Shown here piece by piece: positions 7,236 to 39,673 of a DNA stretch of 54,472 nt (positions are counted from its first letter, which is position 1; each line of letters opens with the position of its first letter). This DNA comes from an uncultured Prevotella sp. (GTDB lineage Bacteria > Bacteroidota > Bacteroidia > Bacteroidales > Bacteroidaceae): assembly GCA_900316015.1 (NCBI GenBank), contig ONBG01000003.1:1-54472 (forward strand), given 5' to 3'. The notes under the pieces are model-generated. The model saw only the letters and a program-made list of their open reading frames with translations. It was not told the DNA's origin and made no database searches. Made by a program: the position numbers and the translations under genes.

Positions 7236-7323
7236 AATGAAAAGGAATGCATTTGCCAATGAATGAGGATTCGTCCATCAATGAATCTAAATTCAAGGCA
7301 AAATGAATCTAAACCCAATGCAA
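7236..7323. repeat. Tandem array, 22-base period, AATGAA units
   Basis: AATGAA occurs at 7236, 7258, 7280 and 7302, exactly 22 bases apart. The two right-hand units are well conserved (AATGAATCTAAA shared, then similar CAA..GCAA); the left two are more decayed. A period not divisible by three argues against a peptide repeat. Confidence 0.65.
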
Positions 7324-7396
7324 ATTCAATATTCGTGCGCGTACATTATATCCGCGCGCGTATAAATAGAGATAAATATAAAGATAAAGAAAAAAA

Positions 7397-7583: not shown

Positions 7584-7693
7584 GGTCATCTCCTGCCTTG
7601 CAAAAGATCATCAATCAGAAGGCAAAAGGTCATCGATCAGAAGGCGAAAGATCATCAATCAGAAGACAAAAGGTCACCTCCTGTCTCCCCACT
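7584..7693. repeat. Tandem array, 22-base period, GRTCATC units (copy A)
   Basis: GGTCATC 7584, GATCATC 7606, GGTCATC 7628, GATCATC 7650 and GGTCACC 7672 are each exactly 22 bases apart. The inner three units also share ATCAGAAG; the outer two share TCCTG instead. The same unit and period recur after gdhA at 39337-39424. It ends about 90 bases before the phoH promoter. Confidence 0.75.
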
Positions 7694-22493: not shown

Positions 22494-24245
22494 ATGGAAG
22501 AAAGAAAAAGTGATCAGATAGACTTAGACAATCCAGAATTGCAGAATGCAATCCAGATTATCCAATTTACCCGCCGCTCGCTTTTCCTCACAGGAAAAGC
22601 AGGGACGGGTAAATCGACTTTTCTCCGCTATATTGCGTCGCACACGAGGAAAAAGAACATCATCCTCGCTCCCACCGGTATCGCAGCCATCAATGCGGGA
22701 GGGTCTACCCTGCATAGCTTTTTCAAACTCCCCTTCCATCCACTTCTGCCGAACGATAGTAGGTACAGCCCTAAAAATATCCGTGGTACCCTGAGATATA
22801 ATGGGGAAAAATGCAAATTGCTACGGGAAGTGGAATTGATTATCATCGATGAGATCAGTATGGTGCGAGCTGATATCATCGACTTCATTGATAAGGTCCT
22901 ACGGATATACAACCGTAACATGCGAGAGCCCTTCGGTGGAAAACAGCTTCTGTTGGTAGGAGATATCTACCAGCTCGAGCCTGTTTTGAAAGAAGAAGAC
23001 CGTCAGTTACTGCGACCGTTTTATCCATCCGGCTTCTTTTTCGATGCCAGAGTGTTCAGGGAGATGCAGTTGGTTTCCATCGAATTGAAGAAAGTGTACC
23101 GCCAGAATGACCCAGTCTTTATCCATATCTTAGACCATATCCGTACTACTCAGTTGAATCCTAACGACCTGACATTACTCAACCAGCGCGTGCATGCCGA
23201 TATCTCCGATGATGAGTCGCAACTCGCGATCACCTTGTCTACGAGAAGGGATACTGTCGACTATATCAATGAACAACATTTGAAAGAATTGCCAGGAGAA
23301 CCCACTGTATTTCAAGGAACTATCCAAGGAGAGTTTCCAGAGAGCAGTCTCCCTACTCCCATGGAATTAGAGGTGAAGACAGGCGCGCAAGTACTTTTCA
23401 TCAAGAACGACAAAGATCACCGTTGGGTAAATGGAACCTTAGGAACGATCATCGGCATCTCAGATGACAGCAGTGCGGAAACCATCTATGTGAGGACCGA
23501 AGATGGGATGGACTATGATGTACAACGCGAGATTTGGAGCAACACCAAGTACACCTTCAATGAGAAAGAACAGAAAATAGAAGAAGAGGAAATCGGGACT
23601 TACCAACAGTTCCCCTTACGGTTAGCATGGGCCATCACTGTCCATAAGAGTCAAGGACTGACTTTCAGGCATGTGAAGATCGATTTTACAGGAGGAGTGT
23701 TTGCCGGTGGTCAAACGTATGTGGCTCTATCACGTTGCACCTCACTTCAAGGGATCAGCTTGAATGCCCCAATCCGCATGGATGAGGTCTTCGTCCGTCC
23801 TGAAGTCACTCATTTCGCACAGGGCTACAACAATATTGATCTCATCAGCAAGGCCTTACAACAAGGGAAGGCAGACAAACAATATTTTGATACGGTAAAA
23901 GCTTTCGAGCGTGGCGACATGCAAGCCGCCCTTGACAATTTCTTCCTCGCCATACACAGTCGCTATGACATTGAGAAGCCAGCCGTGAAGCGCCTGATCC
24001 GGAAAAAGCTAAACATCATCAATGAACTCAAGGAAAAGAACCGTCAGTTGCAGGAGGAAATGAAGGAGAAGGAAAAATTCCTCAAGAAACTGGCGGTTGA
24101 ATATACAGTGATGGGGCGCGACTGCGAGAAAGAAGGGATGCCATCGGCTGCCATACGCAACTATGAGAAGGCAATAGAACTATGTCCTGACATCCCCGAG
24201 GCAAAGCGCCGCCTGAAAAAACTCAAGAAGAAAGGATCGAACTAA
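22494..24245 (+). CDS. Pif1-like superfamily 1 helicase with C-terminal TPR-like tail
   Basis: 583 residues. Walker A GKAGTGKS (34-41) and the following APTGIAAINAGGSTLHSFF segment are hallmarks of Pif1/RecD-like helicases; IIIDEISMVRADIIDFI is motif II and AITVHKSQGLTF with YVALSRCTSL are motifs V/VI near residues 378-410. The last about 120 residues form a coiled coil and one TPR-like unit (AIRNYEKAIELCPD). Probably a 5'-3' DNA helicase acting in replication or repair (inference). Its stop overlaps the convergent cupin stop by four bases (CTAA). Confidence 0.9.
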   Translation: MEERKSDQIDLDNPELQNAIQIIQFTRRSLFLTGKAGTGKSTFLRYIASHTRKKNIILAPTGIAAINAGGSTLHSFFKLPFHPLLPNDSRYSPKNIRGTLRYNGEKCKLLREVELIIIDEISMVRADIIDFIDKVLRIYNRNMREPFGGKQLLLVGDIYQLEPVLKEEDRQLLRPFYPSGFFFDARVFREMQLVSIELKKVYRQNDPVFIHILDHIRTTQLNPNDLTLLNQRVHADISDDESQLAITLSTRRDTVDYINEQHLKELPGEPTVFQGTIQGEFPESSLPTPMELEVKTGAQVLFIKNDKDHRWVNGTLGTIIGISDDSSAETIYVRTEDGMDYDVQREIWSNTKYTFNEKEQKIEEEEIGTYQQFPLRLAWAITVHKSQGLTFRHVKIDFTGGVFAGGQTYVALSRCTSLQGISLNAPIRMDEVFVRPEVTHFAQGYNNIDLISKALQQGKADKQYFDTVKAFERGDMQAALDNFFLAIHSRYDIEKPAVKRLIRKKLNIINELKEKNRQLQEEMKEKEKFLKKLAVEYTVMGRDCEKEGMPSAAIRNYEKAIELCPDIPEAKRRLKKLKKKGSN

Positions 24246-24574
24246 TGGTGCTCTGGCACAATCGCGAGATAGACTAAATCATCCGAGCTTTTATTTTCCA
24301 TGTAATGGCTATGGTTCATCGGACAATAATGCACCTGTCCTGCCGAACAAGTCTCAATCGTATCATCATAATGAAAAGTAGCCGTACCGCTGATCACATA
24401 TACGATCTCACAATTCCCTTGATGGGTATGGAGCCCGCTCGATGCCCCAGGCTTGAGTACGCTCTTCATGATCTTACACTTGTCGTCGACATAATTACGG
24501 GTGTCCAGTTCACCCTTTCCACCTTTAAATCCCTGGATTTTCTGTTCTTCAATCTTATCAAAATCAATGATCAT
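24242..24574 (-). CDS. Small cupin-domain protein
   Basis: 110 residues, one cupin barrel. Motif 1 is GLHTHQGNCEIVYVISG (H-x-H-x4-E-x6-G) and motif 2 is GQVHYCPMNHSHY, so the metal-binding His/Glu set is complete. Such proteins can be isomerases, epimerases or small-molecule sensors; the substrate is unknown. It has a consensus promoter lying in the first copy of the 77-base repeat, and is divergent from the MATE transporter, which suggests (weakly) a shared role such as stress or metabolite export. Confidence 0.87.
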   Translation of the reverse strand: MIIDFDKIEEQKIQGFKGGKGELDTRNYVDDKCKIMKSVLKPGASSGLHTHQGNCEIVYVISGTATFHYDDTIETCSAGQVHYCPMNHSHYMENKSSDDLVYLAIVPEHH

Positions 24575-24864: not shown

Positions 24865-26217
24865 ATGAGAAGACACCGTGATAATTATATTTTCCTAACA
24901 ACAGCACCGATCGGAAAAGTCATTCGAACCATGGCGATTCCGACCATTATCAGCATGCTCGTTACCAGTATCTATAATATTGTGGACACTTGGTATGTGG
25001 GGATGCTGAATACTCAGGCAACAGCCGCTGTCGGAATTGTATTCCCGTTCATGTCTGTCATTCAAGCTATAGGCTTCCTTTTCGGTCAAGGATCAGGCAC
25101 TTATATCTCTCGGAAATTAGGAGCCAAGGACACCAAAAACGCCAGCAGAATGGCTGCCACAGGCTTTTTTAGTGCGCTCGTCCCAGGACTACTTATTGCT
25201 ATCCTTGGTTTATCCTTCCTTCATCCCTTGAGTATCGTCATGGGTTCCACTCCCACCATCCTCCCTTATACGGAGAAGTACTTAGGAATGGTTCTGCTTG
25301 GCACCCCATTTATGGCAGGATCGATGGTGCTTAACAACCAAATGAGATTCCAGGGCAATGCTGCCAATGCCATGTATGGCATGATGACCGGTGCCCTCAT
25401 GAATGTACTGCTCGTTCCTCTTTTCATGTTCGTCTTTGATTTAGGTATCCTTGGATGCGGTATTGGCACCGTAGTCAGCCAAATTTCCGCTTTCTTTGTC
25501 CTTTTGTGGATGTCATATCAGGATGACAATATTCATCTGCACGCCCAGGACATCACCTTGAAATGGACTTACTTCAAAGAGATCATCCGTGGTGGAACCC
25601 CTTCATTGACCCGCCAAGGACTTGCCAGCATTGCAACCTTAATGCTGAACGTAGCAGCTGGTGCTTATGGGGATGCGGCTATCGCAGGAATGTCTATCGT
25701 CACGAGGATTTCCTTTGTCGTCTTTGCCAGCATTATCGGCATCGGGCAAGGCTTTCAACCCTTATGTGGATTTTGCTTTGGGGCCCGGTTATTCCATCGT
25801 GTGCGTGAAGGATTTTTCTACTGCATCAAACTGGGCGTCTGCTTTCTGATTCCCATTGGCATACTTTGTTTCATCTTCGCAGAGGACCTCATTGACATAC
25901 TCCGGCATGATCCGGAAGTAGTCAGCGTAGGCGCAGCTGCCATCAGATGGCAAGTGATAACCTACCCCTTAGCTGCAGTCATTACCATCGGCAACCAAAT
26001 GTTGCAAACCAGTGGGCAAAGTTTGTGGGCCAACATAGTGGCATCAGCAAGAAATGGTCTCTTTTTCATCCCACTTATATTGATCCTTCCCTATATCTGG
26101 GGACTTGAGGGCGTGGAAATGTGCCAAGCTGTAGCGGATGTCTTTTCCTTTATCCTGACAGTCTATGTGCTTACGCGCTATTTCCGAAAGCTCAAACGAC
26201 TGGAACGGAAGGAATGA
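24865..26217 (+). CDS. MATE family efflux transporter
   Basis: 450 residues with about twelve hydrophobic segments in two similar halves, the layout of the multidrug and toxin extrusion family. The N-terminal half includes the TIISMLVTSIYNIVDTWYVG segment and the QGSGTYISRKLGA loop, and the second half GIGQGFQPLCGFCFGAR. It would export cationic drugs or metabolites by Na+ or H+ antiport; substrate unknown. Divergent from the cupin gene; ends before a bidirectional hairpin shared with the small basic-protein gene. Confidence 0.92.
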   Translation: MRRHRDNYIFLTTAPIGKVIRTMAIPTIISMLVTSIYNIVDTWYVGMLNTQATAAVGIVFPFMSVIQAIGFLFGQGSGTYISRKLGAKDTKNASRMAATGFFSALVPGLLIAILGLSFLHPLSIVMGSTPTILPYTEKYLGMVLLGTPFMAGSMVLNNQMRFQGNAANAMYGMMTGALMNVLLVPLFMFVFDLGILGCGIGTVVSQISAFFVLLWMSYQDDNIHLHAQDITLKWTYFKEIIRGGTPSLTRQGLASIATLMLNVAAGAYGDAAIAGMSIVTRISFVVFASIIGIGQGFQPLCGFCFGARLFHRVREGFFYCIKLGVCFLIPIGILCFIFAEDLIDILRHDPEVVSVGAAAIRWQVITYPLAAVITIGNQMLQTSGQSLWANIVASARNGLFFIPLILILPYIWGLEGVEMCQAVADVFSFILTVYVLTRYFRKLKRLERKE

Positions 26218-26744: not shown

Positions 26745-26818
26745 CGGGGTGTAGCGCAGCCCGGTAGCGCTCCTGGTTTGGGACCAGGCGGTCGCAGGTT
26801 CGAATCCTGTCGCCCCGA
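26745..26818 (+). tRNA. tRNA-Pro (anticodon TGG)
   Basis: 74 bases fold as a cloverleaf: acceptor CGGGGTG/CGCCCCG, anticodon stem CCTGG-TTTGGGA-CCAGG with anticodon TGG, T-arm GCAGG-TTCGAAT-CCTGT, discriminator A. CCA is not encoded (ACT follows). It reads CCN codons, mainly CCA and CCG. Own promoter and terminator. Confidence 0.97.
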
Positions 26819-33780: not shown

Positions 33781-34908
33781 ATGACATTCGAATTACAACA
33801 TACTGACAATGCATCCGATGCACGCACAGGTCTGATCACGACCGACCATGGATGCATAAAGACCCCAATCTTCATGCCGGTGGGTACATGCGGAAGCGTA
33901 AAAGCTGTCCACTTCCAAGAACTCCGGGAGCAGGTCAAGGCACAGATTATCTTAGGAAATACCTATCACCTGTATCTCAGGCCAGGACTGGAGGTCCTGC
34001 AGGCAGCAGGAGGACTCCATGGGTTCAATGGATGGGAGCGCCCGATCCTCACGGATTCCGGTGGTTTCCAGGTGTTCTCATTGACTGGAATCAGAAAGCT
34101 GAAGGAAGAGGGATGCGAGTTCCGCTCACATATCGACGGCTCCAAGCATTTCTTCACTCCTGAGAACGTAATGGACACGGAACGCATCATTGGGGCGGAC
34201 ATCATGATGGCTTTCGACGAATGTCCTCCTGGCAAGAGTGACTATGCCTATGCCAAGAAAAGCCTGGGGCTCACCCAACGGTGGCTTGACCGTTGCATCA
34301 AGCATTTCAACGAAACAGAACCGCTCTATGGTTACCGCCAAAGCCTCTTCCCGATTGTACAGGGATGCACCTTTAAGGACCTCAGGCAAGAAGCCGCCAA
34401 ATACGTAGCCGACAAGGGAGCAGATGGCAATGCGATCGGAGGACTGGCTGTAGGGGAACCGACGGAAGTGATGTACGAGATGATTGAAGTCGTGAACGAG
34501 ATCCTGCCCAAAGACAAGCCCCGCTATCTCATGGGCGTAGGAACACCCCAGAACATTCTTGAAGCCATCGAGCGGGGTGTTGACATGTTCGACTGCGTCA
34601 TGCCTACCCGCAACGGGCGCAATGCACAGCTGTTCACATACGAGGGAACCATGAACATGCGAAATAAGAAATGGGAGATGGACTTCTCACCAATCGACCC
34701 TAACGGATGTGAGACCGATCGCGTATACAGCAAGGCATACCTGCACCATCTGTTCAAGGCACAAGAGCTCTTGGCCATGCAAATTGCCAGCATCCATAAC
34801 TTAGCATTCTACTTACGCTTAGTGACGGATGCCAGGCAGCACATCGAGCAAGGGGATTTCGTAACCTGGAAGGCCTCCATCATCGATCAGTTAGGTAAGA
34901 GGATTTAA
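33781..34908 (+). CDS. tgt: Queuine tRNA-ribosyltransferase, zinc site apparently lost
   Basis: Exchanges guanine-34 for preQ1 in GUN-anticodon tRNAs (Asp, Asn, His, Tyr). 375 residues. The catalytic Asp regions TDSGGFQVFSL and FDCVMPTRNGRNAQLF are intact, as is GVGTPQNILEAIERG. The canonical zinc cluster C-x-C-x2-C before YxRAYLxHL is replaced by DPNGCETDRVYSKAYLHHL, with a one-residue shortening and only one Cys; the His of SIHNLAFY remains. Two tRNA-Asp (GTC) genes, natural substrates, lie 5 kb downstream. Forty bases precede the lptF/G-type gene. Confidence 0.95.
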   Translation: MTFELQHTDNASDARTGLITTDHGCIKTPIFMPVGTCGSVKAVHFQELREQVKAQIILGNTYHLYLRPGLEVLQAAGGLHGFNGWERPILTDSGGFQVFSLTGIRKLKEEGCEFRSHIDGSKHFFTPENVMDTERIIGADIMMAFDECPPGKSDYAYAKKSLGLTQRWLDRCIKHFNETEPLYGYRQSLFPIVQGCTFKDLRQEAAKYVADKGADGNAIGGLAVGEPTEVMYEMIEVVNEILPKDKPRYLMGVGTPQNILEAIERGVDMFDCVMPTRNGRNAQLFTYEGTMNMRNKKWEMDFSPIDPNGCETDRVYSKAYLHHLFKAQELLAMQIASIHNLAFYLRLVTDARQHIEQGDFVTWKASIIDQLGKRI

Positions 34909-34948: not shown

Positions 34949-36262
34949 ATGGAATACAGTAAGATTAGGAAACATCATAAGCGACTGAAAGTAGCACGGT
35001 GGATCAGTCAACATCCCAAGTGGCTGCATCGCTTTTTCCAGTGGATACACAAGCACACCGCATGGCTGCGACGCTGCTTCCATTGGATATATCGGCATAC
35101 GGGTTGGCTGCGGAAGACCTTAAGATGGTGCGGCCATCAGCTGAGATGGATAAAATACCTGAACCCATTCAGATATTTCCATAAGCTCGACTGGTATATC
35201 ATCAAGAAGTTCATCGGAACCTACCTCTTCTCCATCGTCCTCATCATGTCCATCTCCATTGTCTTTGACGTCAATGAGAACCTCTCGAAGTTCGCGCAAT
35301 ACCACGCCCCCCTTAAGGCAATTGTCTTCGATTACTACATGAACTTCATCCCCTATCTGGCCAACCTGTTCAGTGCATTGTTCGTTTTCATTGCCGTCAT
35401 CTTCTTCACGTCGAAGTTGGCAGGCAATTCGGAGATCATTGCCATGCTGTCCTCTGGCGTATCGTTCAAACGGCTCCTACGGCCCTACATGTTTTCTTGC
35501 GTGCTCATCGCCATGCTCTCCTATTACCTGAGTGCCTACGTGATACCACACGGAACGGTCATCCGGCAAAACTTCGAGACGATCTACAAGAACAAGAAGA
35601 AGAATACGGCAGCCGACAATGTCCAGTTGCAAGTAGATAAAGGTGTCATCGCCTATATCCAACATTATGACAACAACTCGAAAAGAGGATATGGCTTCTG
35701 CCTCGACAAGTTCCAAAACAAGAAACTCATTGACCACATGACGGCAAATGAAATCCAATACGACACCATTTCCGACTCGAAATATCATTGGAAAGCCCGC
35801 AACTGGAAAATCCGGCACTTAGAAGGATTGAGAGAGCATATCACCAGTGGCGTGGAAAAAGACACGGTTATACAGATGGAACCGACCGACCTTGTGTACT
35901 CAAAAGGCCAGCAAGAGACCTTTACCAGCCCACAGCTCAAGGACTATATTTCCAAACAGATCAACCGCGGAAGCGGGAATGTCGTGCAATATCAGGTGGA
36001 ATATCACAAACGCATTGCCTCATCGTTTGCCTCTTTCATCCTGACCATTATCGGGGCTTCCCTGTCCTCGCGGAAACGGAAGGGCGGAATGGGACTCTAC
36101 TTAGGTATCGGACTGGCACTGAGCTTTACCTATATCATGCTCCAGACGATCTCTGCCACCTTCGCCATCAATGCCAGCTTCCCACCCATGTTGGCTGCGT
36201 GGATGCCCAACATCCTCTTTGCCATCATCGCCTATTTCTGCTACCGACAAGCACCCAATTAA
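34949..36262 (+). CDS. LptF/LptG-family (YjgP/YjgQ) permease with Trp-heptad N-terminal extension
   Basis: 437 residues. From about residue 79 (KLDWYIIKKFIGTYLFS) it is a standard LptF/G permease: three membrane segments, a periplasmic beta-jellyroll (about 195-335) and three C-terminal membrane segments. It would form the inner-membrane part of the LPS export bridge with LptB and LptC (lptC is at the window end). Unusual: the first about 75 residues are a strongly basic extension in which Trp occurs at 18, 25, 32, 39, 46, 53, 60 and 67, exactly every seventh residue, encoded partly by a 42-base repeat. Family members normally begin at about residue 78. The long frame is continuous from the ATG; a shorter start would need an internal codon. 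Confidence 0.9.
   Translation: MEYSKIRKHHKRLKVARWISQHPKWLHRFFQWIHKHTAWLRRCFHWIYRHTGWLRKTLRWCGHQLRWIKYLNPFRYFHKLDWYIIKKFIGTYLFSIVLIMSISIVFDVNENLSKFAQYHAPLKAIVFDYYMNFIPYLANLFSALFVFIAVIFFTSKLAGNSEIIAMLSSGVSFKRLLRPYMFSCVLIAMLSYYLSAYVIPHGTVIRQNFETIYKNKKKNTAADNVQLQVDKGVIAYIQHYDNNSKRGYGFCLDKFQNKKLIDHMTANEIQYDTISDSKYHWKARNWKIRHLEGLREHITSGVEKDTVIQMEPTDLVYSKGQQETFTSPQLKDYISKQINRGSGNVVQYQVEYHKRIASSFASFILTIIGASLSSRKRKGGMGLYLGIGLALSFTYIMLQTISATFAINASFPPMLAAWMPNILFAIIAYFCYRQAPN
35021..35146 (+). repeat. Three in-frame 42-base repeats in the lptF/G-type gene
   Basis: TGGCTGC begins units at 35021, 35063 and 35105. Each encodes 14 residues (W-L-x-R/K-x-F/L-x-W-I/C...) with two Trp. The third unit is more diverged; a fourth, weaker unit precedes the first (residues 11-24). 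Confidence 0.85.
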
Positions 36263-39499: not shown

Positions 39500-39573
39500 C
39501 GGTGCGTACGAGATTCGGACTCGTGACCTCCTGCGTGACAGGCAGGCATTCTAACCAACTGAACTAACGCACC
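39500..39573 (-). tRNA. tRNA-Asp (anticodon GTC), copy 2
   Basis: Cloverleaf with acceptor GGTGCGT/ACGCACC, anticodon stem CCTGC-CTGTCAC-GCAGG, anticodon GTC, discriminator G; CCA not encoded. It is identical to the copy at 39600-39673 and is downstream of it in the same transcript. Its G34 is a substrate for Tgt, encoded at 33781-34908. Confidence 0.97.
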
Positions 39574-39599: not shown

Positions 39600-39673
39600 C
39601 GGTGCGTACGAGATTCGGACTCGTGACCTCCTGCGTGACAGGCAGGCATTCTAACCAACTGAACTAACGCACC
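39600..39673 (-). tRNA. tRNA-Asp (anticodon GTC), copy 1
   Basis: Same 74 bases as the other copy, exactly 100 bases upstream on the minus strand. Promoter-proximal gene of the pair, with 26 bases between the two. Confidence 0.97.

Follow-up and report, generated by a model that had tools for sequence, protein, structure and literature searches.

A basic N-terminal tail with tryptophans in heptad register on the LptG-like permease of an uncultured Prevotella and of many members of its genus

The gene at positions 34949 to 36262 of a 54,472-nt stretch of DNA from an uncultured Prevotella sp. (the whole stretch is referred to here as the window) encodes a permease whose first 80 residues form a basic tail ahead of the membrane-entry segment DWYIIKKF. 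Eight tryptophans stand in the tail, at residues 18, 25, 32, 39, 46, 53, 60 and 67, in the exact seven-residue register that had been claimed from the sequence of the window. The tail is not special to the window protein: judged by sequence matches, both the extension and the Trp register are common to many members of a single GTDB genus (Prevotella, Segatella, Hoylesella, Hallella and others). Its residues follow an amphipathic pattern in heptad phase, with one face basic and very few residues acidic. The best explanation as a whole, to which we give about as much credence as doubt, would be that a cationic helix bearing the Trp rests on the surface of the inner membrane and is joined by a hinge to LptG TM1, at the gate by which LPS enters.

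The permease and its tail

The features of the region are as follows.

33781..34908, + strand: ORF directly upstream, which from its sequence we take to be tgt, queuine tRNA-ribosyltransferase
34949..36262, + strand: LptF/LptG-family permease, LptG-like, with N-terminal tail (ORF, 437 aa)
34949..34999, + strand: N-terminal basic motif, residues 1-17 (MEYSKIRKHHKRLKVAR); a similar motif occurs in many genus members
35000..35149, + strand: Trp ladder, residues 18-67, a heptad-phased amphipathic stretch whose eight Trp keep the register without exception
35021..35062, + strand: 14-residue unit A (WLHRFFQWIHKHTA), starting at residue 25
35063..35104, + strand: 14-residue unit B (WLRRCFHWIYRHTG), starting at residue 39, close to the aligner's position for the 14 additional residues of the window
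35105..35146, + strand: 14-residue unit C (WLRKTLRWCGHQLR), starting at residue 53
35162..35167, + strand: Asn72-Pro73, presumed hinge between the tail and the membrane-entry segment
35192..36244, + strand: LptF_LptG permease domain, residues 82-432 (Pfam PF03739, E 4.6e-67)

Membership of the permease family is clear from the Pfam score (227 bits against a curated cut-off of 27.9, with positions 1-351 of the 353-position profile covered). Scores against the NCBIfam equivalogs fall below the curated cut-offs, at 176.6 bits for LptG (TIGR04408, cut-off 240) and 120.1 bits for LptF (TIGR04407, cut-off 230). The six best PDB matches of the protein are LptG chains. The same genome holds the second permease that a two-permease exporter calls for (L112, G000:C51:46548-47882, 204.6 bits, in a 655-aa frame), which we provisionally call LptF-like. 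Because LptG outscores LptF, the six best PDB matches are LptG chains and a second permease lies elsewhere in the genome, we call the ORF LptG-like on sequence grounds and do not file it as a TIGR04408 equivalog. L112 lacks a long N-terminal tail; its C-terminal region is long and, read by eye, contains acidic stretches. LptF-like matches in frames of more than 600 aa are also present in other families. A search for phage relatives of the whole protein gave no match.

The likeness to LptG and LptF of the LptB2FG exporter (PDB 6mit, 6mhu, 5l75, 6s8g and others) lies in the permease domain. The phmmer match to the best solved LptG chain, 6mit_G, runs along residues 77-430 of the window protein, and residue 4 of 6mit_G aligns with residue 77. 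Thus, only three residues precede the aligned part in the solved chain, and the window protein begins with about 73 residues more, which upholds the prediction of an N-terminal extension on an LptF/G-type permease. As also predicted, the stretch is rich in Lys, Arg and His: its 80 residues include 9 K, 11 R and 10 H, with 1 E and no D.

The LptG-like ORF begins 40 nt after the presumed tgt and is followed by what we take, from its motifs, to be a DEAD-box helicase-like gene. A tgt-like C-terminal end, scored by a loose pattern of our own, stands upstream in all 129 genus loci, no more than 60 nt from the assigned start in 118 of them.

Searches with the tail pointed to no known domain. Five tails compared with Pfam matched nothing at E below 0.13, and neither the window tail nor a tail profile matched any PDB chain at E below 0.99. 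Searched for as a repeat domain elsewhere in its own genome, the tail profile matched only this gene (E up to 10). A four-Trp heptad DNA pattern occurs at eight places in that genome, five in this tail and three elsewhere, the latter three of which may be due to chance; a control pattern occurs at two. In the open-licence literature we found no description of this tail, or of an LptG N-terminal extension in Bacteroidetes.

Other repeats and RNA genes were seen in the window. A 77-bp unit is present in 2.8 copies at 99% identity between 24607 and 24818, flanked by leftward and rightward ORFs that we presume to be cupin-like (24242-24574) and MATE-like (24865-26217), respectively; it may be a regulatory region that has been repeated. 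At 7280-7324 (2 copies) and 7600-7676 (3.5 copies) lie short arrays with a 22-bp period. Two tRNA genes with equal scores lie 100 bases apart on the - strand (39500-39573 and 39600-39673), and a third is at 26745-26818.

Spread, register and length in the genus

Permease matches at E up to 0.001 were obtained in 57 of 60 genomes, including the window's own, a few of them weak (for example G001, G023 and G045). The permease core was matched at E up to 1e-60 in 192 of 201 family genomes, and the whole protein at E up to 1e-150 in 357 of 398 genus genomes. The tail profile, built on a 32-row alignment (A2), matched 63 of 200 genus genomes; in an order sample of 247 genomes it matched the window's own genome and G630 only. 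The four matches in G630 lie in frames of 54-92 aa. In the samples taken, the tail is restricted to one genus. The genus is here the genome group g1. We infer from sequence, including identical proteins such as those of L051 and L002, that loci named Prevotella, Segatella, Hoylesella, Hallella, Leyella, Xylanibacter and Marseilla probably belong to it.

Loci were taken from the best matches of the permease and whole-protein searches, 40 of the further ones coming from the upper part of the genus listing. The sample leans to the window's relatives: for the named loci, the best 80 of 334 were kept and one of six seed peptides lies inside the tail. Tails were read from the first ATG after the tgt stop, a rule that shortens L012 and L079, which probably use GTG. 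Of 181 genus loci (L001-L110, L149-L219), two (L068, L183) were missed by the pattern and three (L016, L087, L091) had no ATG after tgt. Merging duplicates left 129 distinct tails, 126 of which had enough core for a tree. Kinship among tails was reduced, not removed, by identity clustering and the use of disjoint pairs, and kin with tails are represented too heavily. A further 36 loci came from other genera of the family; four were unread by the pattern and four had no usable ATG, leaving 28 tails from 20 genera.

Were eight Trp placed at random in 80 residues, the chance of all falling in one mod-7 class would be 7.4e-8. Since duplication could inflate this figure, the register across the genus is the stronger test. 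Three or more Trp are present in 92 of the 129 tails, and in these 92 a multiple of seven separates 567 of 724 Trp pairs, against 93.4 expected from shuffles (sd 8.7). Among representatives sharing less than 60% identity, 56 of 76 have three or more Trp, and in these the count is 325 of 458 against 58.4 expected; no period between 3 and 12 other than seven was enriched. The window, with eight, has the most in-phase Trp of all 129 tails; nine tails have six, and at least three are found in only 74 of the 120 tails of at least 38 residues. Acidic residues account for 143 of 7215 positions over the 129 tails (2%), and the median net charge in tails of at least 38 residues is +15. The N-terminal motif pattern matches 89 of the 129 tails, and its R7 and R17 are nearly invariant in A2. 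In 108 of the 129 the last Pro lies eight residues before the core Asp.

None of the 28 sister-genus tails (8-73 aa) carries a Trp ladder, nor, judged by eye, two Trp seven apart; these tails are different, mostly shorter, and basic. One Trp pair seven apart is found in L133, a locus of another genus with no usable ATG. Within the genus, L025, L030, L017, L100 and L218 are nearly tailless, with tails of 6, 12, 14, 17 and 26 residues among them. In the core tree L017, L025 and L030 fall within one group of 11 rows, and L100 and L218 stand apart. Since some genus members nearly lack a tail, its role is probably to modulate export rather than to enable it.

Tail length varies from 6 to 87 residues, with peaks at 52 (17 tails), 66 (13), 67 (23) and 70 (8). 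The commonest form, of 66-67 residues, accounts for 36 of 129, and the window tail exceeds it by one 14-residue unit. When 32 tails are aligned, 14 window residues stand opposite a gap in the other 31 rows, their exact placement being the aligner's choice; some rows lack a further 7 residues (L199 and L213, for example) or 14 (L070, L073, L076). The prediction had read the window tail as partly encoded by three 42-base in-frame repeats. The identity between units is 29/42 nt for A and B, 17/42 for A and C and 19/42 for B and C, and unit A matches the equivalent unit of other species at up to 30/42 nt, so that the match between A and B is no better. Neither Tandem Repeats Finder nor a second repeat search listed a 42-nt array at the tail. 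With such low unit identity and no array, a recent three-copy tandem repeat is unsupported; one old extra 14-residue unit is plausible. The longest tail, of 87 residues, belongs to L069 (L069:1501-1761) and has three 14-residue repeats of its own, alike at 32, 25 and 26 of 42 nt, each with a Pro three residues after the Trp. No second strain of the window's own species turned up in which units could be counted.

Measured from the motif Arg to the membrane-entry Asp, 52 of 89 tails share a single mod-7 class of length (chance 1/7), and 85 of the 89 fall in three classes, the main one and those at minus 3 and plus 3 (chance 3/7). Among 48 representatives, 28 are in the main class and 44 in the three. 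The motif that anchors this ladder was picked after the sequences were seen and matches 89 of 129 tails, and the test is not independent of shared ancestry. Main-class lengths from motif to membrane are 46, 53, 60, 67, 74 and 81 residues. Raw comparisons gave a different picture: among 30 path-disjoint pairs that differ in length, six differ by exact multiples of seven (about four expected) and 15 by 1-3 residues. Exact multiples of seven for every length change are thus rejected. Because raw differences are rarely exact multiples, the seven-residue ladder applies to the tract, not to every tail end. Growth by duplication, as suggested for the window, is in keeping with the 7- and 14-residue changes seen in some lineages, in the 32-tail alignment and in the six pairs just mentioned.

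Constraint on the tail was estimated from 25 sequence-disjoint pairs of equal tail length and at least 50% tail identity. Pooled over these pairs, pN/pS was 0.271 for tails as against 0.052 for the permease domain; without the identity filter the values were 0.294 and 0.055 (26 pairs), with pN below pS in 25 of the 26 tail pairs. Nonsynonymous change is therefore about five times faster in tails than in the core. Trp was identical in 190 of 195 comparisons, as opposed to 76% for other tail residues (184 of 194 and 75% in the unfiltered pairs). These ratios of 0.271-0.294, and the retention of Trp above other residues, indicate that the tails are coding and constrained, far less so than the permease, with Trp as the most constrained residue. 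In the window no in-frame ATG, GTG or TTG besides codon 1 is found between the preceding stop and the membrane helix. A later start is excluded in this way only in the window and nine others (10 of 129 tails); the remaining 119 have such a codon between the assigned start and the core. With no alternative start in the window and purifying selection on tails, the window tail is very probably translated from codon 1.

Amphipathic pattern and possible roles

Averaged over 54 representatives, the hydrophobicity spectrum has its maximum at 104 degrees per residue (z 21), and masking Trp leaves the maximum at that angle (z 27). Counting from each Trp, the face consists of W+0 (Trp by construction), W+1 (93% hydrophobic), W+5 (68%) and W+4 (47% hydrophobic, 47% H/K/R), which are neighbours on a helical wheel in the order W+0, +4, +1, +5. 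Positions W+2, W+3 and W+6 are 34-50% basic and 2-4% acidic. Of 42 prolines within the tracts, 26 stand at W+5. In the window tract 18-71 the hydrophobic moment is 0.556 at 102.86 degrees, the highest long-range value among four angles tried, and 0.374 at 100 degrees; shuffles of the tract average about 0.142 and none of 1000 reaches 0.556. The 18-residue moment exceeds that of a sequence's own shuffles in 67 of 69 representatives. The difference between the moments at 102.86 and 100 degrees points to a heptad long-range phase, which would suit a helix paired with a partner or one that bends or kinks as it follows the membrane.

The tail shares traits with two known classes of helix. Like cationic amphipathic surface helices, it has a hydrophobic face and a basic one, with a high moment and positive charge; segments of it score 1.2-2.5 on a HELIQUEST-type lipid-binding scale. 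Such helices are phased at 3.6 residues or at 11, whereas the tail is phased in heptads, with Trp at nearly every heptad in the window, lengths that mostly change in steps of seven and a position inside an ABC-exporter subunit. Like heptad coiled coils, among them the Trp-zipper, a designed coiled-coil type, it has a seven-residue register with one hydrophobic stripe and a spectral peak at 103-104 degrees. In contrast to them, its face is broad, taking in W+0, +1, +4 and +5, acidic residues are almost absent and it has no known partner.

What stands of the predicted amphipathic cationic helix or coiled coil at the membrane face is a coding, cationic, heptad-phased amphipathic stretch beside the membrane. 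For the rest, we infer, as to helix and membrane contact from the periodicity of the sequence, that the tail would form an alpha-helix lying on the inner leaflet, hinged by Pro73 and acting on LptG TM1. Under this explanation the first 80 residues would be a lineage-specific cytosolic tail of the LptG-like permease. The tail would follow the inner leaflet of the inner membrane as a helix that may be kinked at HP/HT positions. Side chains of Trp and Leu/Ile/Phe would dip into the interface, Lys/Arg/His would meet phospholipid head groups, and the conserved Pro would turn the helix out of the line of TM1, so that the tail might act as an outrigger holding the cytosolic end of that helix.

The published LptB2FG(C) structures are, we presume, from enterobacteria. 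According to one paper, LptG TM1 and LptF TM5 together make up a lateral gate, which is the site of the LptC helix and the proposed entry route of LPS (PMC6744409); another describes this gate as conformationally dynamic (PMC11458178). The gate model stems from other bacteria and may not hold in the Prevotella genus. Since LptG TM1 forms the proposed entry gate with LptF TM5, the tail would tune gate movement or the placement of the exporter in the membrane. Direct binding of LPS, one of the ligands first put forward, is the less likely, as LptF/G permeases have their N-terminus in the cytosol and LPS enters from the periplasmic leaflet. Anionic phospholipid would be a more natural ligand.

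Protein packing is the main rival to the surface helix. The tail would then be a strand of a coiled coil or helix bundle on the C-terminal part of LptF, on LptB or on the tail of a neighbouring exporter, with the Trp ladder setting the register; we consider this possible, if rather unlikely. The spectral peak and the angle of highest moment speak for it, a heptad phase kept over 54 residues being no worse a fit to a supercoiled packed helix than to a straight helix on the surface, and changes in tail length keep the register. The long C-terminal region of the 655-aa LptF-like frame, with its acidic stretches, also speaks for it. Against pairing of tails with one another stand the net charge and the scarcity of acidic residues, and LptF-like frames of more than 600 aa also occur in other families (G037, G054 and G056), where the LptG frame has only 366-368 aa, so that long LptF-like frames and tails show no specific co-occurrence.

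It seems improbable that the tail is a loosely constrained basic leader, whose charge beside TM1 aids insertion or topology and whose Trp periodicity is a by-product of unit duplication. Fast evolution, the basic but different tails of sister genera and the near-absence of a tail in some genus members would all fit. However, Trp is the most conserved residue, the periodicity persists with Trp masked and in representatives below 60% identity, and duplication alone would not maintain it. Binding of nucleic acid or ribosomes near the membrane, rather than lipid, is suggested by the basic and aromatic character of the tail and its net charge, and is very improbable given that a broad face of W and L/I would be unusual for such binding and that the Pfam and PDB searches gave no match better than the E values stated above. 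Hardly credible is a stretch left untranslated, with the protein starting near the membrane helix, as homologues outside the genus often do and as later start codons in most genus tails would allow, in view of the absence of any such codon in the window and the selection on tails. Homologues lacking the extension, which by the original prediction would have marked it as an untranslated leader, do exist outside the genus and among a few of its members; they point to lineage specificity and dispensability instead.

Export of LPS is central to the envelope and is a target for drugs; its regulation is known mainly from enterobacteria. At the same time, the window's genus is common in gut, rumen and mouth. 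The exporter of this genus carries a Trp-rich tail for which five examples found no Pfam family and no solved structure was matched. A bolder version of the surface-helix explanation, which we offer tentatively and think unlikely as it stands, is that the Trp ladder is a length-quantised helix on the cytosolic membrane face, a lineage-specific regulatory domain that, by way of LptG TM1, would mechanically set how far the LPS entry gate opens, its length tuned between species in steps of 7 or 14 residues. The natural ladder of tail lengths provides a ready-made series in which the length and register of a helix beside the gate helix are varied.
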